A stretch of 64,000 nt of DNA from Nymphaea colorata (Eukaryota; Streptophyta; Magnoliopsida; Nymphaeales; Nymphaeaceae). The stretch is taken from the NCBI RefSeq assembly GCF_008831285.2, contig NC_045143.1, positions 17,148,464-17,212,463 of the forward strand, read 5' to 3'. A program made the translations under genes and the position numbers. Shown here one piece after another: positions 520 through 46,584 of this stretch (within the stretch, counting starts at the first letter, position 1; every line of letters starts with the position of its first letter). Under the pieces are notes generated by a model that made no database searches, was not told the DNA's origin, and worked only from the letters and a program-made list of their open reading frames with translations.

Positions 520-801
520 CTGGAAGTTGTGGGGTGGGATGCCGCAGCCATTGTCGGCGACCTTGAAGGACTCCCGGCCGTACTCATTGAGGGCGATGTC
601 GATGGAGGTAGAGCCGGCATCGAGGCTGTTCTCGACGAGTTCCTTAACGGCGGAGGGCAGGTCCAATATCACCTGCCCTGAGCATATCCTGTGCACGTCC
701 CCCTTGTTGATTGGCCGTATAACTCCGGCCGCAGGCGACGACGAGCCGCCCGCGCGGGCGCCACCGCCACCCGCGCGGGCGCCACCGCCACCCGCTTCCA
801 T
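520..801 (-). CDS. PMS1: DNA mismatch repair protein PMS1, first coding exon (partial gene)
   Basis: This is the N-terminal exon of a MutL-family GHKL ATPase. In plants PMS1 pairs with MLH1 (MutL-alpha) and acts in the nucleus after mismatch recognition. The translation contains GVIRPINKGDVHRICSGQV, the ATPase motif ELVENSLDAG with its Mg-binding Asn, and the DNGCGI motif, all in the usual order and spacing. The reading frame ends at PHNFQ followed by a good splice donor (CAG|GTACAC, GT at 518-519), so the rest of the gene lies beyond the left edge. An upstream in-frame ATG at 888 exists. I chose 801 because the 802-888 stretch holds E2F-like sites and has no family similarity. A Gly/Ala/Arg-rich leader (GGGGARA twice) precedes the conserved part. 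Confidence 0.9.
744..794 (-). repeat. 21-bp GC-rich tandem repeat in PMS1 N-terminus
   Basis: Two near-identical in-frame 21-bp units encode GGGGARA twice just before the conserved ATPase domain. PMS1 N-terminal extensions vary between species, so this is probably a lineage-specific length change with no effect on catalysis. Confidence 0.6.
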
Positions 802-820
802 CGTTACGCCGACGGAAATC

Positions 821-889
821 CTCCCGCCAAGCCCCCACAAACGCGAGACTCCCGCGGGAAATTTACCCGCCAGCACTTCCCGCGCCAAG
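821..889 (-). promoter_or_regulatory. Cluster of three E2F-like sites upstream of PMS1
   Basis: On the minus strand the sequence holds TTTCCCGC (854-861, a perfect match to the E2F consensus TTTSSCGC), TTGGCGCGGGAA (878-889) and TTGGCGGGAG (821-830). They lie within 90 bp upstream of the preferred PMS1 ATG. E2F sites are well known in promoters of plant replication and repair genes that peak in S phase. The sites are seen; regulation by E2F is inferred. Confidence 0.55.
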
Positions 890-2186
890 GGTTATACCTT
901 TGCCAGAAACGGATCCGACCTTTTCTTCCGTTTTATATCTAGACGGTGGTGGAAATTGCAATATTATCAGTATCGGATCTCGTCTTGTATATCGAGTCGT
1001 GTCGGCCGAAATTTACATTCATGTATTAGGTTCTATAAAACCTTAAATATAAAGCGATTTGGTTTGGTCCAAACAACTTTTATATTAGCCGAAATCTGGG
1101 GATATGGCTCTTTTTCGGCTTTTACTTGCGTTAATTAGCTAGCCGTAGCACGCGTATCGGCTGATCAGGGCAATAGTCGCCGATACTAGTGGGACTTTTC
1201 CCGTTATGAATCTTAATACCGTTTACATTCCCTCCATTTCGTTAGCGTCGCCGATGGTAGTAGTGATATATAAAGCTTAAAAACCTCTAACCCAACCAGC
1301 TATATTGTTCTCCTTAAAGTCCATCCATGTTTTTTGTAAAGTAATGCATGTTTCAAATCAAGAAAGAAATATAGAGTTCGATTCGACGGTAAATTTCACC
1401 AACCGCAGATTTAAGATCAGCCTTTGATCCGATATTTGAGGCCGCCAGCATTGGCTCACAATTGAGTTATTGTGATGTAAACGAAGTTTTTTAAGAAATG
1501 GTTTTGAAATCAAGTCGGCTAAGCTGCTTTTTATAAGAATTGACCGATCATGCGATTCAGCGGAACTAGTTGTGTGTTTCTTTCTCAACAATTGGAATTT
1601 CTGAAAAGATTAAAATACAATATGCTTTAAATTGTTTAAAAGCGACTCATAGCTTTCTCTTGAATTGGGTTTATTGCCACTTGTTCATTTTGAATCAGTC
1701 AATCCTGATTACATTTATGTAAATTAAATTGATCACAACTACTCTGCTAGACTTGCTGTTCCATGTGCATTAATTAAAAGAGGCATGCCCTTCCGAAGCT
1801 AAATCTCCAATGGCTTCCAATGCCATGGAAAAGTTCAAGACATGCAGAGAGACAAGAATGGTAGTTGATATACGACTTTCACTTAATTGAATGTCCTCCC
1901 TCCTTCATCTTCCATTTCCGATGCCACGGAAGAAGGCTCGATGCGAACAATTGCGCGATGATTTCACATGAACTCACGAAGAAGAGAGAAGACCATTTCA
2001 ACAACTTAACATCTCATTTTTACAATCAATCGAACATCATGAAGAAAAACAAAGAGTAAGCGATGGAATTATCGATACAATTCAATGGAACGCACGGAAA
2101 TAACGTAAGAGAGAGAAGAGATAAATCACCAAGTAAACGCTCTGCTTACACATTGACAGAGCTTAAGGTGGGGCCGCTTACATTGG
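890..2186. other. Intergenic region between PMS1 and the U-box gene
   Basis: AT-rich sequence that should contain the distal PMS1 promoter and the 3' flank of the U-box gene. I see no conserved coding segment, RNA gene or clear repeat in it. Confidence 0.6.
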
Positions 2187-3875: not shown

Positions 3876-5588
3876 CGCACGGTCGTGAACCCGTCAAACG
3901 TTGACCTTTCTTCCTCGCAGTCGGTCTAGCTATTCGGCTCGGCTCGAAGCGTTTACGAAAGTTTAACTTGCTTAGTTATTTTTTAGAACCACAGGTAGTA
4001 ATGCATTAGATTATTATATGCGACCCCCCCTATTTATTTTGAGTATGTAACTTGTATTTTGCATTTGCACATAGTATTTATGTCAATGTTTCTTCATATT
4101 CTTCTTGTTATTGAACGTTCCCATCACACCTTTTTTGCTATAACTATGTTTTTAAGGGGGGGCATTTGACACACGATGAATGTTCTCATCACGCCAGCTC
4201 GGCTTCACCAGCCAGCCTTGCACATTCCGTCACCGTGAAAGGCAAGGTAAAGAATTTAGTCATGGCAATCAAATGCCAAAAATGCCCCTTACTTTCTTAA
4301 TTTGTACCTTCTTCTAACAACTAAGTTGGGTAGGCGTTCCATCTTTTATGTCAATGAGTAGAAGCTGGTTGGTCTTAAATTGTAGTTAATATGGAGTCGC
4401 CAAGGGACCGAAGAAATTTAACGCATCATAGATTGTGTGGTAGATCTACCAAGAACCACTTCAAGCCATACAACACAATGCGCACATATTTACTTATCCA
4501 AAGCTCCATTCATACTCTACAGTGAGTGGAGTGTATGGATGAAGGTGAAAAAATGTCTCATAGCATATTTTTGTCTTATGTCTCATAGCAACTGCTTGTT
4601 CACAAACCCTAACCTACAGCATTAACGAAGAGACTTATATTCGACTCGAGTGGGCCACTAACTAGGTCCACGATCAACCCTTAGTGGGACCCACCCATGG
4701 GTGGCTCCTCCGGAGCAGAAAAGTCCTCGACTACTTGAGTCCGAGTCTCGCTGCTTTGGAGCCTCTCGTGGAAAAAAGAAAAGCACAAAAACGCTGAACG
4801 ACTGGGTCCAATGAAAAGGCCGTGAGGTTGACATCCCTCTCTTTCATTGTTGAAAGAATCCAAGTTGCTTGGGTTACATTACATGAAACTGACAAGTCTC
4901 GGCTTGAGCTCGCTGATTTACACGAAACTGAACCGAGCCGTAGGCTCGTTTATCTAAAGGTCGAGCAACCCTAACAGTCCTCCCTCCGGGGCGTTGGCTT
5001 CGATCAGATTTGCGTCTCGTAAGGTATAACAAAACTGTCTTCAACATGACATTTTTTCCATTTTTTTTTTTTTTGTAACCATTTGTTGGTACGAAGGCGG
5101 GAACCATCTCCATCGGCTTCTTAGATTAAAAAATTGTGCATCACATGGTTTTCTGGTTATCGAATAGCTCCCAAGTTATTTATTTTTATCGTAGCTGTTG
5201 TTTTCAATAATGTTTTGATTTAAATAAAATAATATCAACCAGAATCTATGCGAAACAATGATTAATACGTTAGGTGCGTGTATCACAATGTGGCTCATAT
5301 CGTATGATGTTAAAAAGCAAATCTATCTTCTTCTTTTGTCAATTGGCGCTACTTGGTTCGCTGAATTTCAAGCTCGATTAACTTGTTCAACATTGGAGTG
5401 GAGGAGGCTGCTCTCCTCGTAAACAGGCTGATTCGATTCAACAGGCTGCCCTCCTTGGATCACGAACGCACCGGTACTCTTAACGCTATAGATCCAATAG
5501 TTGGTTTCTGATCCCCGCTCTCTCACTCCCTCTCAAACGCACACACGGTGCGAGCGGAATCGGAGGTCGGAATCCGTCGGGTTCTACG
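3876..5588. other. Intergenic region between divergent U-box and UMPS genes
   Basis: This 1.7 kb spacer separates two divergently transcribed genes and should contain both promoters. The last 80 bases (from about 5510) are a CT-rich leader typical of a plant 5' UTR for UMPS. No coding region, RNA gene or clear transposon end was recognised. Confidence 0.6.
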
Positions 5589-9345
<3,757 letters not shown>

Positions 9346-28335: not shown

Positions 28336-31300
28336 TATCCCATAATTATTAACATAGTGACTGGCAGAAGTTAAGAGTTGATACATCATTTATGATGATA
28401 ATGTTGTGATGGTTCTGTTCTCAAAATGGGTAGCAGAGATTTTAGATCTCTCTCCAAATTATCATATAATATTTTGCTTGCATGATCGGCTCACTACGAC
28501 GACCCCGTTGGTTGGTTGGGTTCCACTTCCACTTCCATTAACGCGATGCTTCTACTCTGGATCCAGATCATTCCAGCCCAAACCGGACCCGCTTTGGACC
28601 CGGCAAATCACTGGCCCGAGAATCTCCGACTCAATCTCCTTTCCCACATCGGATAGGTATCCCCGGCTTGTGCTCTACGTGGCGGAGCAACCCACCTCGG
28701 TGGGTCCGACTCTCCCCGCCCCTGCCAGCCGCGATTCTTCTCCCAATAAATCGCCGCATTGTCACTTCCTCGGCTAAATCCCTTGGTTGATATATATATA
28801 TATATATATATGCCCGATAATTGTTATATCGTTAAAAATAAAAAATCTATTACTAAAAAATCTACAAATCCTTGTAAAATAATCATCATGTTTACAAACC
28901 ATCTAATGCTCCTCCACAGTTGTTTTCTAACCACATATTTTTAAGTTTTAGTTACCTAGCAATGGACTCCAGCTTATATATAGTTGTAAGATTGGGTTTG
29001 AAGCAGGATCGGATCTAAATCTGAGCTTACGTCCCCTAATTTGGAAAGTCCTCTCTCTATCTCTCCCTCTCTGTAATTTAATTTAATGGGGTGGGTGAAA
29101 CTTGAGGAGCTAGTTCGAGACTTGTGACTAATAGTAGCTACAGGACATTTTTCAAAGTTATATAATTGTTCTTGTTCTGATGATTAATGCCCAACAACCT
29201 AATGAAATGTATTTGTTAATTTTACTTTTGAATGCTTTATAGCGTTATTGACTGTCATTACTCTTTGTTTAAGGCACCATGTGAAGGCAACTACGGAGAT
29301 CTGAGAAGCCAAAGACTGAGAGAGAGAGAGGATGGAATTTTTCTATTCCCACCTGTAGCTTGTTCTTTTGTGGGGGTTCATGAGTCCCCACATATTGTAG
29401 ATTCCAATCTCTACCACATGATGACCATGGAGTGTTGGAGATAAAGGAGTGCAAGGATGCAACCTCGAGGAATTTAAAAAAAGAGCAAAACGAAAAAAGG
29501 AAAAACAATTTAAAAAAAAAAATACATCTGTCTTGCAGTTAGGTCTGATAAACAAGACAGACAGGTTGCTGATTGGCCGTCCCAGTCAGAATTTGTTGAA
29601 TACCATAAAATAAGTTCACCAACGCAAGAACACGAAAAAACAGGTGTTAAACTACATTAAGTAAGGTCAAATGTTCCCCTGAATTGACAAAATTTTTAAT
29701 AGGTGAAACCCTTGGTCTCGGATCCTGATCAACTTACAGGAGTACGTCAACAGTGATTTGAATTCTTAATAAGTTCAACTGAAAGATGCATGAATTACAT
29801 CTTGAATTTGTAAGCATTACTCTTACAATCTATGAACTTCAAGTCAGATAACCGTAGCTCTCTATCTTGAGATTCATACTTTTGATCAACGTTGAGAATC
29901 TTAAATCTATATTTGTCAAATCCAGAATTGCCTTCTAGAATTATAGATCAACAGTGAACCCCACATAGGGTCAGACACTTAGATCTAAGATCAGAAGAAA
30001 TCAAACGCTTCCTGATAGTTAAACCACGTATGCTCAGCATCACATTCTTCGAAGAAGAAGAAGAAGAGGATGATGTATATGGCTCCTGTTCCACATGTAT
30101 TTCTCACAAAGAAGGAGAGAGCTAATGAGAGAGGCACATGTGGGCAATTGCCCACACAAGCCCATATAAATTGCTTATTTATGTATTAGCACCTCATTGA
30201 CATTTAGTTCATTTACTCATTACCAGCATGCTTCTTTAAAATTCCAATCGAAGTATCAATCCCTTAAGACAGAAATTTGTGGGTCTACCTCTAGAGAGGT
30301 TTTCTGGTTTCATAACCTCTTTGTATGCTAAGTTGGTAGGGATGGAGACGCATGGATCTGGACCCTGCCATAATGGGCAGATCCAGATCTACAAATCCAA
30401 CACTTCCTAACAAAAAGATTTGACCATAGAGCCCTTTCTATAGTGTTTCAAACCGATGACGTACTGAGTTCGGTAGTTTGGTGACGTTACTCGTTCAATT
30501 ATTGGGCATTGCTTCTCTCGGGCGAGCCCAGATTGAGTTTCAAGTGTTTGGTCTGTTGGCCATACACTGTTTATGAGACCCGGTTTCTTTGAAACTATGG
30601 TTGATGGCAGTGTTCTATCCTATTAACCAGCTACGTGGCAAGCGCGGCTTCTCTTTCCCTTTTTTGTGGCCTCAAATTTGATAAAGAGTACAAGAATCCA
30701 TTTAAATGAGGCCATTCCTTTTTGCTGTCAGGATTCTCTTCAAATGATGTCCTCTTCTCATCAATTCTGAAAACCAGGTTCTTTGTGCTGGCCGCGATAT
30801 TCTGCATATACGTGTGCTTTGGCCTCTGTCTCGCCCATGATAGCTACGCCATGAAGAACCACAGCCAAGTTTATATTTTTGCAATTTCTTGTTATTGTTT
30901 GATATGTGAAAGGACAAGTTTACATCCCCACGCAAGAAGCTCTTTCACAAATGTTACTTCTTTGAAAAGAATGAGATGATTTGGCAGCAGAAATTACATC
31001 AGTTGTTGTTGTTGAAAATTCTTTCGTTTTTTGTTTTTTTAATTTAACATGGTAAGAAGCTTATATTTTATGTATAGTTTGAAATGAGAACTATGCTATC
31101 GATGTGAATCTGTATACATAATATATTATCCGACACAGTCTCGGTGCTCGAGGTGAAGCTGCCGTGTGTTGGTTTTTCTTGCTTGGGGAGCCGGTGATCG
31201 CAGAGACGAATCTTCCCCAGAAGATTTCGTCCATGAATGTTTTGTAGGCCCCATGCATGCAGCCACATGCAAACACGATAAGATTCTCGCAACCAGTTGC

Positions 31301-32023
31301 CCAATTCTATCCCCAAGTAGCTTTTACTGCAACGAAAGGGAAAAACTGCTCCTAGCAGTAGCTTTTCGTCTAAAGAAAATTCTTCAAATGTAACATTGAA
31401 TGGGCCCTCTTGTTCCTAACATGATTCTTTTGACGGTGCTAGATCAAAGAAACGAACAACCAACAAATTGCTTGATAATGATTTGTGAGATGTGACCAAC
31501 TAAAGGATTCCAACACGATAACTTCAAACCTTTCATCCAATCCACCACTTCACCCAAAAGGAAAACAAGGAAACGGAGAAAAGAAAAAGAAAAATCTTAT
31601 TGGTTGCATGAGCACAGGAACTCTTGTGATATCTGTAAGTAAGACGTTGCCAACTAAGATTTTGCGAGAGAGAGAGAGAGATCTGTTTATTTTGATCCAG
31701 ATACACAATAGAATATGCCAAGTGCTACTGCAGTACTATAGCACTGCGCTAATAGCATATACTTTCACAATAACAGATATTAAAAATTCAAGATCCGAAG
31801 AATCAGGATCTTAGTCCCCCACTCAAGAACCATGGATTTAACAGCTATCCGAGTCCAACTTCAACCGTCTCTTGGATTTGGACTTATAACATGAATCCAG
31901 AGTACTTGCAGACAAGGTCTTATGCCCATTGAATCCTATTTTTACACTTAAACTTCGAATTGCAGAACAAAGATACAGGTCTGAATTCGAGTCCGATTGT
32001 TCAATCAGATCTGTCTATTTGGA
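28336..32023 (+). repeat. Segmental duplication block I, copy A
   Basis: This 3.7 kb block matches 42485-46584 in the same orientation almost continuously, by eye above 90 percent identity. The shared part starts at TATCCCATAATTATTAACAT and ends at TCAGATCTGTCTA..TTGGA. Relative to copy B, copy A lacks two segments, one of about 240 bp (junction near 30035) and one of about 140 bp (junction near 30320). No terminal inverted repeat or target duplication is visible at the ends, so I favour segmental duplication over a transposon. No recognised gene lies inside. Confidence 0.9.
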
Positions 32024-33683
32024 CGTAGAGCAAGTCAATCAGCTCAAACCAGTCTTTCGGCGGATAATTAAGATATGTTTTTTGATTTATGCCTGTTTCA
32101 ACTTATATAAAAAGTTGACGCTCATGCCATTCGAACCAGTGATCAGCTACCAACCAGTCACCGGCCTCCTAAATCCTTCATCTTCGTTTTTGGAATATTG
32201 TGGGTCACATACCATTAATAGGGAAACTGGTAGGTACGCCTATGTACACCTAAACTAGAGAAGCCAATCAGGCGTGATAATGTTTAAAAATGGCAGTTGG
32301 GTCCAATAAAAGCTTATGTTGGTGACCACGTACAAACCCCCTTTGAATCTCATTATTTTAAGTTGTTGCGCTCAAACTTTAACCATGCATTGGTGATGTA
32401 TGCTGTTGATGGATAAGAATTGACCTTTAAATTGCTTTTCAATTCATGTGAAAATGTGTTCTTCTAGAACACCAACTCACGAGGCACTTCAAATTTCTCC
32501 AAGATCCGCGGTAAATGGGGAGCCTAGGTTCGTTCTAAGATCTCAACATCTACGATTCATAGTTGTTCATGTAACGTCCTCGAAATTTAGTATCGTATTG
32601 AAGATTATGAGGAATCTTCAAGGACTTATAAATGAAGGTCATTAATAAAATGATTGTCTTGGTTCCTAACCTTTTTAAAGTTAGATCTTTCTCTTGCAAA
32701 CAAAGATGTATTATATTTGAGAAAGATCTTCCCTTTGTCCATGGTGCAATATATGTAAACACCTTGAGTTTCAACTTGGGAACTTCTTATTTCTTTGCTG
32801 CATGTTGCCAAGCACGCCATATTAGTAATGGTACACAAGCTCAAAGATGTTGTGCTACTTGCCGTAACTTAGATGTGGTCTTGTTTTACTTTCAACTGGT
32901 TCTTTGTCTCTCTTCAATTGTTTTTTTTCCTTTCTATCTGTTTAGGCTTCTGCGTCTGCAGTTCTTTTACTTGTTCTGCGTAAAATTTGTAGCCCGGTAA
33001 CCAACGGTCAGCCAGAGAGAGAAGTTGATGGGTCTTCCCAAATTCAAATGAACAAGATTGAGCAATTTTATCACTTCTTTCTTGTTTTGAATGGTGGGTG
33101 TAGAGGAATTAGTAGGAAGATCCTTGTCTGTCAATAGGGAAAGTGTTCATTGACTCTCGCAAGTATATGATACATCTTTGTTATAACTTTTTGCCGCAAG
33201 TATTATGATGCATTTTATCATCAACCAAGTCAGCCAAAAGAATGTGCCATTCTTTTACTGTCCCTTTTCTTTCATAAAAAAAAAAGTACAGGTTTTTCTT
33301 TTTCCTTTTTCCTCTCGTCCTAAATCAATTCTTCTGGGTGGAATTTCTGTGCCAACAAGAGAAGTTCATCTCGGTGCCATCCTTTGCTAGTTTGTTCATG
33401 AGCCCCCTTGATGAGCAATACTTTTCACATTTCATTCTTTGGAAGAGATTTATGTACATGGCAAGAGGGCTTAGTCAACTAAGTTAAATCCCGATGCTTC
33501 AACGAACTGGTTCAGTTGACACAGACTGATGTTAGTGGTGATATCACTGGGCTGTGTCTTCTCCACAGACTTCTCTTATATCTTCTATTTTGTTCTATTT
33601 TCCCCCAAGTGAATGAATTGCATTTAGAGACTTACAGTTTAATTGGTTAAACTATAACACTGATACTGAGGGTTCGAACCTTA
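32024..33683. other. Intergenic DNA specific to duplication copy 1
   Basis: No counterpart was found after block I copy B. I see no coding sequence. A short tRNA-like segment (A-box-like TTTAATTGGTTAAAC near 33640 and B-box GGGTTCGAACC near 33670) directly abuts the Harbinger-like element and may be a SINE head. Confidence 0.5.
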
Positions 33684-33840
33684 GGGCCCGTTTGATGGGC
33701 GGGTGAAATTTAACGCGGTAAATTTACCATAGTAAATTTTTCTGGAAAAATTTATAAGATGAAATTTCTCCTTCTTCCAATCGAAGGCCCTGTTTGATAG
33801 ACGGGAAGAATTTGCCGTGGTAAATTTAATCGTGTTTGAT

Positions 33841-34459
33841 GCGCAGGAAGAATTTAACATGGTTTTATGTTGTTCCACTTCCAAAACCAGATTTTTATGT
33901 TGTTCCTCTTCCAAAACCAGATTTTTATGTTGTTCCTCTAGTTGAAGAGCTGTCTCATTGTTCAAGCGCTCTTCTTGCATTTGAAGCCTGAGCTGTTCAA
34001 TCTCATGGTGCTCTTTTTTAAGTTTTTCTTCTTGCAGTATCAAATTTTTCTCCAAACTATCCAACTCCAACTGCAGAGACTGATTTGACCTCTCTAACAA
34101 ACTAACTTTCTCTTCGGCACTCTTGAATCTCACTGTCCCACTTTCTCTTCGGCACTCTTGAATCTCACTGTCCCACTCTTGAATCTCACTCTTTTGACAA
34201 CGGAAGGAAGTGATGATGAGCCTTTTTGGAGATCATCTAAATCCAACAAAGACCGCACCAGGTTTGTTTCTTCAGATGTATTAGGTTCACTGTCTGAAAC
34301 AGAGGATGCCCTAGGAGAATCATCAGATAAGTTGAACAGAATCTGATCTAAAAATGCTTCTGCCATTGCTCGATGAGCTTGCCGAAGCTCAGCAGTTGCA
34401 TTGTCATATCTTGCTGCTAATAAACGATATGCTCTATAGAATTCCTCAACTAGCTTCAT
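33841..34459 (-). pseudogene. NETWORKED1 (NET1/KIP1-like) gene fragment captured in transposon
   Basis: The frame from 34459 reads MKLVEEFYRAYRLLAARYDN and continues TAELRQAHRAMAEAF...DDSP, which is the C-terminal half of the NAB actin-binding domain and following linker of plant NET1 proteins. A second frame (34133 down) gives the coiled coil EEKVSLLERSNQSLQLELDS... with three copies of EEQHKNLVL. The two frames are separated by a 35-bp tandem duplication that shifts the frame. The first part of the NAB domain and the long remaining coiled coil are absent. NET1 proteins link actin to membranes; this piece cannot encode a working one. Confidence 0.8.
34107..34195. repeat. 35-bp tandem duplication breaking the NET1 frame
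   Basis: The unit CTTTCTCTTCGGCACTCTTG plus 15 further bases occurs twice in direct succession, followed by a partial third copy. Because 35 is not a multiple of three, the NAB-linker and coiled-coil frames are put out of register. Confidence 0.85.
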
Positions 34460-34889
34460 GAGTCTCCAAAAAGAGGCTTCGATTGCATATAGAACTGAAA
34501 CAAAGAAGGCTGGGATTCCCAGTTAACAGAATGAATCACCAACTAAGTAGTTCAGATGGAAATTTGTTCACGACAGAGAAAAACAAATAAGCCACTGAAT
34601 CTTCTAAGCATTAGCTTTCGATATCCAATTATAGAATTCTTGGAGTCAGTAAAGAGATTAACTGAACTAGTAAATCAAACGGTATACGCAGAGACAGAGG
34701 GCAGCCAAGGCTGGAGGGACGGTGATGGGCAATTTCTGTAAAAACCAATTTTTACAGAGAGAAAAATGAGAGAGAAGACCAGACCATGAATCAGAGAACT
34801 ACACATACCGATGGAAGGCAAAAACCCTCAAATCGGAACTCCAAATCGCCCAAATCAAAAGAAGAACAAAAGAAGAGGGAGGTTGAACA

Positions 34890-35265
34890 GGCGATGGCAC
34901 AGCAAGAGAAGAGGAGCAGCGGAGGGAAGGCATCAGCGAGGGAAGAGGAGAGGGAGGAGGAACTATGGAGGGAAGGCATCAGCGAGGGAGGAGGAGCTGC
35001 GGAGGGAAGGAATCAGCGAGGGAAGAGGAGAGGGAGGAGGAGAGGAGAGGGAGGAGGAACTGCGGAGGGAAGAGGAGAGGGAGGAGGAACTGCGGAGGGA
35101 AGAGGAGAGGGAGGAGGAGAGGAGAGGGAGGGAAGAGGAGAGGGAGGCATCAGCGAGGAGAGGAGGAACTGCAGAGGGAAGGCATCAGCGACGGAGGAGG
35201 AGCTGTGGAGGGAAGGCATCAGCGAGGGAGGAGAAGCCATGGAGGGAAGGCACCAGCGAGGAGAG
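34890..35265. repeat. Purine-rich minisatellite inside the Harbinger-like element
   Basis: Variants of GAGGGAAGGCATCAGCGAGG and GGAGGAGGAACTGCGGAGGG alternate many times, all with purines on the plus strand. Long open frames through it are composition artefacts. Confidence 0.9.
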
Positions 35266-35283
35266 GTCGAGCCTTCCCTTTCA

Positions 35284-35434
35284 AGCGGGTGAAATTTCAC
35301 CCGCTCGAAAGTCCGAGGTGGGAGCTCGGACTTTCGAGCGGGTGAAATTTCACCCGCTCCTTTTTGCGTTAAACGGGTGAAGTTTCACCCCGTTTGATGC
35401 ATTTTCAGTCGGGCGGGTGAAATTTCACCCGCCC
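35284..35434. repeat. Subterminal palindromes of the Harbinger-like element
   Basis: Perfect palindromes with the core GGGTGAAATTTCACCC lie at 35285-35304, 35338-35357 and 35411-35434 (the last is 24 bp). The first two also sit in the arms of a larger inverted repeat with an 8-10 bp loop. Repeated subterminal motifs are typical transposase binding sites; that role is inferred. Confidence 0.75.
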
Positions 35435-35864
35435 GTACACATTTCACCCTCCCCACCATATTTCACCCGCCCATCAAACGGGCCCTTATGGAAATCGACG
35501 AAAAACACATGATCCGCTTCCTAAAGCTTGACCATCATGGTTAACTCAGCATGCAGGAAAACAAAAGATGAAGGAAACATGGCCACAGCTCCTGCATGAC
35601 TGCATTTTGTTTTTGTGGGAATGAATTCCACAGGCTGCTTGGAGCGCTGATACCTGTCAGCACTACATCAGTTTGACGTGAAAATGAGCTCGTAGTGTCC
35701 ATACAAGACCTCAAGTGTATTTCGAGCCACCATATTGTATGCACCCAGATACAGCCCAGCCAGGGAGATAAAGATGCATGTGCATATTTTGCATTAATGC
35801 TGCAGTTGCATCCATATCCAAATTCAATCAGTGGCTGACCAATAAGAATGTGGCTGTACCCACA

Positions 35865-42484: not shown

Positions 42485-42918
42485 TATCCCATAATTATTA
42501 ACATAGTGAGTGGCAGAAGTTAAGAGTTGATACATCATCTATGATGATAATGTTGTGATGGTTCTGTTCTCAAAATGGGTAGCAGAGATTTTAGATCTCT
42601 CTACAAATTATCATATAATATTTTGCTTGCATGATCGGCTCACTACGACGACCCCGTTGGTTGGTTGGGTTCCAGTTCCACTTCCACTTCCATTAACGCG
42701 ATGCTTCTACTCTGGATCCAGCGCATTCCAGCCCAAACCGGACCCGCTTTGGACCCGGCAAAATCACTGGCCCGACAATCTCCGCCTCAATCTTCTTCCC
42801 TACATCGGATATGTATCCCCGGGTGTGGCGGAGCAACCCACCTCGGTGGGTACGACTCTCCCCGCCCCTGCCAGCCGCGATTCTTCTGCCAATAAATCGC
42901 CGCATTGTCACTTCCTCG

Positions 42919-42953
<35 letters not shown>

Positions 42954-45900
42954 TAAAAAATAAAAAATCTACAAATCCTTGTAAAATAATCTTCATGCTT
43001 ACAAACCATCTAATACTCTTCGACAGTTGCTTTCTAACCACATATTTTTAAGTTTTAGTTACCTAGCAATGGACTCCAGCTTATATATAGTTGTAAGATT
43101 GTGTTTGAAGCAGGATCGGATCTAAATCTGAGCTTGCGTCCCCTAATTTGGAAAGTCCTCTCTCTATCTCTCCCTCTCTGTAATTTAATTTAATGGGGTG
43201 GGTGAAACTTGAGGAGCTAGTTCGAGACTTGTGACTAACAGTAGCTACAGGACATTTTTCAAGTTATATAATTATGCTTGTTCTGATGATTAATGCCCAA
43301 CAACCTAATGAAATGTATTTGTTAATTTTACTTTCGAATGTTTTACAGCGTTATTGACTGTCATTACTCTTTGTCTAAGGCACCATGTGAACGCAAATAC
43401 GGAAATCTGAAAAGCCAAAGAAGGAGAAAGAGCGAGAGGATGGAATTTCTCTATTCCCACCTGTAGCTTCTTCTTTTGCGGGGGTTCATGAGTCCCCACA
43501 TATTGTAGATTCCAATCTCTACCACACGACCATGGAGTATTGGAGATAAAGGAGTGTAAGAATTCAACCTCGAGGAATTTAAAAAAGAGCAAAGCGAAAA
43601 AAGGAGAAAGCAATTAAAAAATGCGTCTGTCTTTCAGTTAGGTCTGATAAACAAGACAAGTTGCTGATTGGCCGTCCCAGTCAGAATTTGTTCAATATCA
43701 TAAAATAAGTTCACCAACACAAGAACATGAAAAACCAGGTGTTAAGCTACATTAAATAAGGTCAATGTTCCCCTGAATTAACAAACTTTTTAATAGGTGA
43801 AACCCTTGATCTCGGATCCTGATCAACTTAAAGGGGGCATACCAACAGTGCTTTGAAATCTTAATTGGATTTTAAAGTTCAACTGAAAGATGCATAAATT
43901 ACATCTTAAATTTGTAAGCATTACTATTACAATCTTAAAATCTATGAACTTCAAGTTCGGTAACTCTAGCTCTCTATCTTGAGATTCGTACTTTTGATCG
44001 GTATTGAGAATCTTATATCTATATTTGTCAAATCTAGAAGAACTATAGATGCACAGTGAACCACAGATGGGGTCAGACACTTGGATCTAAGTTCAGGAGA
44101 AACCAGACGCTTCTTGACAGGTAAACCACGTATGCTGAACAAGATTTTCCGCATGTAAAACCTGCTTGATTTAGATCAGGAAAATCTTACGGATTTTATG
44201 AAACCATGTGGTATGGCTCGGATCCATCGTCTTTCAATAGGAGCAGTTGACGATGGAATTGGATTTTTCCCATTATTTCAGTATCCGTAATAGTACGGAA
44301 AGAAGGCCCGGCTCCATGTTGTTCAGGAATAATGGCATTGAGTTTCTTGACCCTTTGACTTAGAATTAGTCAGTTCTCATAATCACATTCTTTTCAGGTT
44401 CACATCTATCCCTCCTAGGTGCTGAAGAAGAAGAAGAAGTGGACGATGTATATGGCTCCTGTTCCACTTGTACTTCCCACAAAGAAGAGAGCTAGTGGCA
44501 GAGGCACATGTGGGCAATTGCCCACACAAGCCCATATAAATTGCTTATGTATGTATTAGCACCTCATTGACATTTACTTATTTACTCATTGGATGGCATG
44601 CTCCTTAAAATTCCTATTGGAGTATCAGTATCCCTTAGACAGAAATTTCTGTCTAGAGAGTTTTCTGGTTTCATAACTCCTATTGCACGGGAATGCACTT
44701 GACCCCAAAATGAATGGAAAACGAAAAACTCAACATATTCATTCTCTTCATTTTCGATACACTTTCCTCCCTCACTGCCTCTTTGTATGCTAAGTTGGTA
44801 TTCCCAGGGAACTCTGAATGGAAGTCTCCATTCCTGTGAAAGCAGACGCATGGATCTGGACCCTGCCATAATGGGCAGATCCAGATCGACAAATCCAACA
44901 CTTCCTAACAAAAAGATCTGACCATGGACCTTTCTTTAGTGTTTCAAACCGATGACGTACTCAGTTCGGTAGTTTGGTGACGTTACACGTTCAATTATTG
45001 CAGTGTTTCTCTCGAGCGAGCCCAGCTCAGATTGAGTTTCAACTGCTTGGTCTGTTGGCCATACACTGTTTATGAGACCTGGTTTCTTTGAAACTATGGT
45101 TGATGGCAGTGTTCAATCTTATTAACCAACTACGTGGCAAGCGAGGCTTCTCTTTCCCTTTTTTGTGGCTTCAAATTCAAATGTGAAAAGAGTCCAAGAA
45201 TCCATTTAAATCAGACCATTCCTTTTTGCTGTCAGTCAGGATTCTCTTCAAATGATGTCCTCTTCTCATTAATTCTGAAAACCAGGTTCTTTATGCTGGC
45301 TGTGATATTCTGCATATTCGTATGCTTTGGCCTCTGTCCCGCCCATGATAGCTAAGTCATGACGAACCACAGCCAAGTTTATATTTTTGCAACTTCTTGT
45401 TATTGTTTAAAATGTGAAAGGACAAGTTTACATCCCCATACAAGAAGCTCTTTCACAAATGTTACTTCTTTGAAAAGAATGTGATAATTTGGCAGCAGAA
45501 ATTACATCAGTTATTGTTGTTGAAAATTCTTGTTTTTTTATTTAACATGGTACGAAGCTTACTTGGATAATTATACCTGGCATATCCTTTTTCAACTAAT
45601 ACATGAGTTTTATATACAGTTTGAAATGAGAACTATATTATCGATATGAATCTGTGTATATAATATATTATCCGACACTGTCTCGGCGTTCGAGGTGAAG
45701 CTGCGGTGTGTTGGTTTTTATTGCTTGGGGAGCCGGTGATCGCAGAGACGAATCTTCCCCAGAAGATTTCGTCTATTAATGTTTCGTAGGCCCCATGCAT
45801 GCAGCCACATGCAAACACCATAAGATTCTCCCAACCAGTTGCCCAATTCTATCCCCGAGTAGCTTTTACTGCAATGAAAGGGAAAAACTGCTCCTAGCAG

Positions 45901-46202
45901 TAGCTTTTCGTCTAAAGAAAATTCTTCAATTTTAACATTGAATGGGACCTCTTGTTCTAACAAGATTCTTTTGATGCTGCTAGATCAAAGGAACGAACAA
46001 GCAACAAATTGCTTGATAATGATTTGTGAGATGTGACCAACTAAAGGATACCAACACGATAACTTCAAACCTTTCATCCAATCCACCACTTCACCTAAAA
46101 GGGAAACAAGGAAACGGAGAGAGAAAAAGAAAAATCTTATTGGTTGCATGAGCACAGGAGCTCTTGTGATATGTATAAATAAGACGTTGCCAACTAGGAT
46201 TT

Positions 46203-46238
<36 letters not shown>

Positions 46239-46584
46239 TTATTTTGGTCCAGATACACATTAGAATATGCTAAGTGCTACTGCAGTACTATAGCACTGCG
46301 CTAATAGCATATACTTTCAAAATAACAGATATTAAAAATTCAAGATCCGAAGCATCAGCATCTTAGTCCCCCACTCAACAACCATGGATTTAACAGCTAT
46401 CCGAGTCCAACTTCAACCGTCTCTTGGATTTGGACTTATAACATGAATCCAGAGTACTTGCAGACAAGGTCTTATTCCCATTGAATCCTATTTTTACACT
46501 TAAACTTTGAATTGCAGAACAAAGATACAGGTCTGAATTTGAGTCCGATTGTTCAAATTGTTCAATCAGATCTGTCTACTTGGA
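42485..46584 (+). repeat. Segmental duplication block I, copy B
   Basis: This is the second copy of the 28336-32023 block, same orientation, 4.1 kb. It retains two segments absent from copy A (about 44140-44400 and 44680-44840), has a longer AT tract near 42920, and a longer AG tract near 46206. Its right end stops just before a long AT microsatellite. No recognised gene is contained; a short shared open frame with a signal-peptide-like start (about 45245-45353) is truncated by a stop here compared with copy A. Confidence 0.9.

Follow-up and report, generated by a model that had tools for sequence, protein, structure and literature searches.

How did a fragment of a NET1-type actin-binding gene come to lie between the inverted ends of a transposon in the genome of Nymphaea colorata? 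The window, that is, the whole 64,000-nucleotide stretch analysed here, maps to contig C6 of the genome assembly used for the searches, 407,766,735 bases in 783 contigs. A sequence-only reading had proposed a Harbinger-like element with a captured NET1 fragment, and the ends, the target site duplication, the empty sites, the parent gene and the relatives of the element all bear this out. The locus is very probably a Pack-PIF element, a non-autonomous PIF/Harbinger transposon that took up genomic DNA from a NET1-type gene on contig C1 and then transposed at least once together with this cargo.

The element spans positions 33684-35485 of the window (1802 bp), exactly as originally placed, and is composed of the following features:

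33681-33683, no strand: left target site duplication, TTA (a single TTA is present at two paralogous empty sites)
33684-33709, plus strand: left terminal inverted repeat (TIR), 26 bp, 26/26 perfect, GGGCCCGTTTGATGGGCGGGTGAAAT
33684-33863, plus strand: family left arm, about 180 bp, with internal GTTTGAT repeats; common to the relatives, including transposase-bearing ones
33863-33939, minus strand: 30-bp tandem repeat, 2.6 copies, at the junction of cargo and left arm
33880-34177, minus strand: captured NET1 coiled-coil exon piece (6073-6330 of the reverse complement of L010, the parent stretch)
34105-34174, minus strand: perfect 35-bp tandem duplication, frame-shifting, also present in the second copy, L009
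34187-34462, minus strand: captured NET1 exon piece, the last ~20 NAB residues and the downstream spacer (5225-5510 of the parent reverse complement)
34463-34688, minus strand: captured NET1 sequence, predicted intron (4472-4694 of the parent reverse complement, 96% identical)
34700-34778, no strand: 79-bp interior patch common to five other complete elements, L032-L036
34796-35127, no strand: interior patch, 84% identical to L011 (C10), an element that showed no match to NET1
34896-35261, no strand: purine-rich imperfect tandem repeats
35279-35485, no strand: family right arm, with palindromic GCGGGTGAAATTTCACCCGC repeats
35460-35485, minus strand: right TIR, 26 bp, 26/26 perfect, GGGCCCGTTTGATGGGCGGGTGAAAT
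35486-35488, no strand: right target site duplication, TTA

The inverted ends, previously described as clean, are thus perfect over 26 bp and bordered by TTA on both sides. Inverted repeats of at least 13 bp with a TTA or TAA duplication did not occur in any of 40 Markov-1 simulations of the window; the real window contains three, and the two besides those of the element are 14 bp long, one of them being a TA run. When the duplication rule was dropped, the longest inverted repeat in 20 simulations measured 14-20 bp. The 26-bp ends fit the short inverted ends of PIF/Harbinger elements, given as 25-50 bp (PMC2572040), and the 3-bp duplication is of the type, mostly TTA/TAA, that characterizes this superfamily. 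No transposase was matched by any of six ORFs of at least 120 aa scanned from the two strands of the element (Pfam, up to E 0.1), in line with the sequence-only reading. The maize PIF element prefers the target CWCTTAGWG, and the 18 oriented target sites of the family described below approximate C-[CAT]-C-TTA-R-G-G, which is similar. Rfam and tRNA searches of the window returned nothing, nor did the TIR match prokaryote contigs or the NAB domain viral contigs.

The boundaries are corroborated by paralogous empty sites. The flanks of the element, joined with one TTA, were matched against the source genome, yielding seven matches, namely the two flanks themselves, three short one-sided pieces on C5 and two empty sites, C5:25080015-25080254 (90% identity) and C5:17543598-17543798 (87%). 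Both sites are contiguous across the junction, with one TTA and the boundary predicted for an unoccupied locus; in the alignment, GAAC(C/G)TTATGG stands at the insertion point and the element is absent, and the small indels lie some 20 bases or more away. Being paralogous loci within the one genome searched, these sites show the boundaries of the element, not an allelic polymorphism. A duplication within the window (28336-32023 versus 42485-46584, 86-90% identical in pieces) flanks the element on either side, and none of its matches extends to the element's own flanks. On the minus strand, the segment 35869-36048 resembles by eye the C-terminal exon of a CstF64-type gene, with a small frame break, although a Pfam search of this segment had no match; the element might therefore be located immediately downstream of a gene.

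The source of the cargo is a NET1-type gene at C1:18623571-18625429 (stretch L010), detected by DNA search. At the scale of the whole element, the genome search gave at least 72 matches (the best 40 of 822 candidates, so that the counts are lower bounds). The parent gene matches the element in three pieces, at 91-96% identity: element positions 798-1023, 1024-1299 and 1343-1606 in gene sense correspond to 4472-4694 (96%), 5225-5510 (92%) and 6073-6330 (91%) of the parent reverse complement. Relative to the parent, the cargo has two internal deletions and an extra 38 bp (element 1309-1346) that repeats parent positions 6074-6111 at 100% identity. The parent contains a 1289-aa open frame, its second exon, which by itself matches the KIP1 (NAB) domain at 1.3e-22 over model positions 21-74, and an upstream exon that reads SRSYSWLWDSH. 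This exon shows the RXYS signature that precedes the WWW motif in NET1 NAB domains (PMC4046492), with WLW replacing WWW. Arabidopsis NAB domains are described as always beginning with WWW (PMC4046492), to be compared with the WLW of the parent at about position 4138 of the L010 reverse complement.

Open frames and splice-like signals point to an intron that separates the 1289-aa exon from the SRSYSWLWDSH exon. Because the first piece of the cargo falls in this predicted intron, the capture would have been of genomic DNA, and for the same reason a retrocopy was rejected. The captured DNA would extend from inside this first coding intron into the second coding exon, which is long. NET1 sequence does not continue beyond the inverted ends of the element, nor do the empty sites show other boundaries, either of which would have gone against the sequence-only reading; the full gene sits elsewhere, on C1, and no TIR was found within 4 errors in the 9.9 kb of L010, placing the parent outside any element of the family. 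The 12 matches of a genome search with KIP1 fall in the parent, in further genes of NET type or parts of such genes and, twice, in the C1 copy of the cargo; the short NAB piece of the window was not among them.

Several other readings of the interior were discarded. The stretch at the NAB break is parental and not filler DNA. The segment 34463-34900 had been considered as a 5'-UTR with an intron, but the part that matches NET1, 34463-34688, corresponds to parent sequence that separates one coding exon from the other; an interpretation of 34700-34900 as a NET1 promoter or UTR was rejected, as its pieces recur in other family members. The TIR-like stretches at 33786 and 35386 might have been decayed internal ends of fused elements; they are instead family features, because the same arms recur in relatives whose interiors are different.

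A second copy of the cargo, L009, is located from C1:9745103 onward, and the ends around it resemble those of the element in the window. As in the window copy, approximately 5510 to 6073 of the parent reverse complement is missing from L009, and the two copies have in common the 35-bp tandem duplication and the outer cargo junctions; over 34660-34900, which is mostly non-NET1 sequence, the two are 98% identical. The first internal deletion differs, L009 retaining more of the NAB exon, with a stop codon and a frame break. In an alignment of 690 cargo positions, the window copy has 9 private substitutions and L009 has 7, and a further 13 set the two copies apart from the parent; this count omits the rearranged tail, and with the tail kept the numbers become 29, 6 and 16, respectively. 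The shared derived changes of the C1:9745103 copy indicate mobility after capture, as in Pack-TYPE elements, and fit a single capture that was followed by trimming and by transposition at least once, so that the cargo would have been acquired once and subsequently carried along. The DNA might have entered the element by fusion of neighbouring insertions, according to the model put forward for maize (PMC8903248), or by copying during repair. The clean ends had been taken to suggest fairly recent movement; this holds in a relative sense only, the cargo copies differing at 16 of the 690 positions and the arms differing more.

The arms of the two copies differ by 13% on the left and by 19% on the right, where the alignment is poor, and over the last 110 bp of the right arm by 10 of 99 positions. 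This divergence far exceeds that of the cargo, is not what a simple duplication would predict and counts against capture followed by joint transposition. Between the window and L009, eight of the nine 100-bp bins covering 33984-34883 are 96-100% identical, compared with 87-88% in the two left-end bins and 73-90% in the right-end bins. Such a near-identical core between diverging ends, together with the mosaic interiors of the family, would be expected if gene conversion or recombination within the family had combined one cargo core with different arms. This scenario, which is compatible with the Pack-PIF explanation and implies that cargo is passed from element to element in addition to travelling with its carrier, appears rather unlikely, considering that C>T/G>A accounts for most left-arm changes relative to a consensus of the relatives (8 of 12 in the window, 12 of 16 in L009) and that the left-arm tree is weakly supported. 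In the whole right arm, which aligns badly, the bias is absent (4 of 17 and 17 of 51, respectively). In its last 110 bp, C>T/G>A changes make up 2 of 11 in the window and 10 of 19 in L009, several other types of change being equally numerous in the two; this right-tip pattern suits shared ancestry and methylation-type decay of L009. The cargo has 3 such changes of 9 in the window and 3 of 7 in L009. Across the family, left arms were counted in 11 members; C>T/G>A changes form the majority in 10 of them and half in L012, and the whole right arm is without bias. We favour the view that the ends have decayed faster than the cargo by methylation-type change, most strongly in L009, which would explain the arm divergence under a single capture.

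Separate captures from the same gene by the window element and the C1 copy are very improbable. The left arms of the two copies are not nearest neighbours among 17 left arms, and the first internal deletions are unlike, as two captures might have left them, but the same second deletion, the same 35-bp duplication, the same outer junctions and 98% identity over 34660-34900 are very unlikely to have arisen twice.

Could the captured cargo encode a functional chimeric protein? The cargo strand contains open frames of 130 aa (34130-34522) and 183 aa (33681-34232), overlapping at the 35-bp duplication. The 130-aa frame matches KIP1 at 7.2e-5, the only Pfam match up to E 0.1 among the six ORFs of at least 120 aa; as no more than the last 20 of the 74 model positions are present, this match does not reach the curated cut-off. 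The NAB piece and coiled coil that the sequence-only reading recognized on the minus strand are therefore present, the NAB piece being short and the 35-bp duplication separating it from the coiled coil and shifting the frame. Neither in the window copy nor in L009 was the half of the NAB domain that contains the tryptophan motif found. Substitutions relative to the parent at codon positions 1, 2 and 3 number 5, 5 and 8 in the window copy and 4, 3 and 5 in L009, so that, in these small counts, there is little third-position excess in either. With only the last ~20 NAB residues kept and the frame shifted, the window copy should make no actin-binding protein, and a functional chimera is extremely unlikely. 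As is typical of Pack-TYPE elements, a host gene fragment lies between the ends with no match to a transposase, and the truncation and frameshift suggest that this fragment is best seen as a non-functional passenger, a putative pseudogene with no actin-related role.

The window element belongs to a family with common ends and diverse interiors. Among 20 stretches fetched from the genome, 17 are end-to-end elements of 966 to 2477 bp, one is the parent gene and two have a single recognised outer end. The flanking triplets match in 17 of 18 elements, the window included (15 TTA/TAA, one CTA and one TGA), and are mismatched in L027; L009 was counted as matching after its right end was moved one base in, its right tip being one base short if the duplication is read TTA/TTA and the unshifted reading being TTA/TAA. 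Twelve further loci comprised three already seen (L029-L031), five more complete elements with matching triplets (L032-L036, with TIRs accepted within 5 errors) and four in which no end pair was found (L037-L040). Five members, L015, L017, L018, L019 and L023, share 99.4-99.6% identity when gap columns are ignored, so that part of the family moved recently. Three complete members (L036, L033 and L035, at C11:18358216, 18376644 and 18384152) occupy a stretch of about 26 kb, and their hits share one strand, as expected from local hopping or tandem duplication.

The sequence-only reading had proposed a search for same-ended copies with and without NET1 cargo; both kinds exist, L009 with the cargo and others with different, mosaic interiors. 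That of L026 contains a WRKY fragment (PF03106, 3.8e-13), the only match above the curated cut-off among ten ORFs from other interiors. A 1551-bp stretch of this interior occurs whole in two further places at 97-98% identity, and two loci on C7 match its first 794 bases at 96% (in both cases among the best 40 of 59 candidates). The left arm is absent from L072 and L073, the stretches of 431 and 441 bp beside these C7 loci, which makes the latter candidate WRKY parents. In the L024 interior, a coiled-coil ORF (element 720-1235, minus strand), which we take to resemble a plant kinesin tail, has no Pfam match above the cut-off, and L012 shows a weak PPR-like match (0.069, below the cut-off); both are possible further captured genes.

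The likely source of transposase for the element is to be sought among its larger relatives. A genome search with PF13359 gave at least 150 matches (the best 150 of 307 candidates), and 9 of the 30 transposase loci fetched have the family TIR, with up to 4 errors, in the same ~3.3-kb stretch. In the 4.9-kb L070 (C6:8099104-8103981), the TIRs match at 20/20 and 19/20 bases and the duplication is TTG/TTG; its ORFs encode a predicted DDE_Tnp_4 domain split over two ORFs (4.7e-17 and 1.6e-5) and a Myb/SANT partner (Myb_DNA-bind_3, 7.5e-16). Adjoining these genes is an ORF with a Cauli_VI/RNase H1 N-terminal match (L070:923-1285, 4.9e-17), possibly another captured domain, and a similar ORF is present at L020:673-1035. 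Relatives such as L070 are likely to supply a PIF-type transposase that would move the element in trans. The Harbinger-type assignment made from the window is firmer because of the matching triplets in 17 of the 18 elements and the transposase-bearing relative with the same ends.

Pack-MULEs have target site duplications of about 9-11 bp, CACTA elements are marked by CACTA at their ends, and inverted ends do not suit a Helitron. Mutator and Helitron elements are the classic examples of gene capture (PMC8903248, PMC2528002), but a Pack-MULE, hAT, CACTA or Helitron element with NET1 cargo is vanishingly improbable here, given a duplication of 3 bp only, confirmed by the empty sites, ends that begin with GGGCCC, and same-ended relatives encoding DDE_Tnp_4 and Myb/SANT domains.

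Gene capture by PIF elements is already known from other plants and is better documented than the sequence-only reading, which called it less often described, had allowed. In maize, Pack-PIF elements with captured gene pieces have been reported by a study that also annotated PIF elements in rice (PMC8903248); the accounts given there agree with the present family in the non-autonomous PIF ends, the TTA/TAA majority, the host gene fragments and the differing interiors. The present case differs in the plant genome and in the cargo, NET1 here and WRKY in relatives, and the parent, a second copy and paralogous empty sites are documented here for one element. The Pifvine-3 elements of grapevine, also of the PIF superfamily, have 3-bp duplications that are mostly TAA or TTA and contain transduplicated exons and introns; unlike the window element, with no transposase match, that family is described with transposase-coding members (PMC2528002). 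Turmoil-1 of C. elegans is likewise a Harbinger element with captured protein-coding sequence, but it is an animal element that bears a transposase, and its cargo is located inside long, 760-bp inverted ends (PMC2572040). NET1 as cargo had been considered new; as far as a narrow literature search shows it is, with no report of NET1 as transposon cargo, no match to NAB peptide strings and none for Harbinger in Nymphaea colorata, the kind of carrier being already known.

Tentatively, this PIF/Harbinger lineage might be a prolific gene shuffler, with common arms of ~180-200 bp, many mosaic interiors (NET1, WRKY and possibly kinesin-like and PPR-like pieces) that are perhaps exchanged, and transposase-bearing members with an RNase H1 N-terminal-like domain (Pfam Cauli_VI). 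If so, Pack-PIF capture would occur here on a scale like that of Pack-MULEs in rice. The evidence for this gene-carrying PIF element is unusually full, as a single genome contains paralogous empty sites, the gene of origin, a sister copy with shared derived changes and relatives that bear a transposase, and the family is suited to asking how PIF elements acquire host DNA, and how often.
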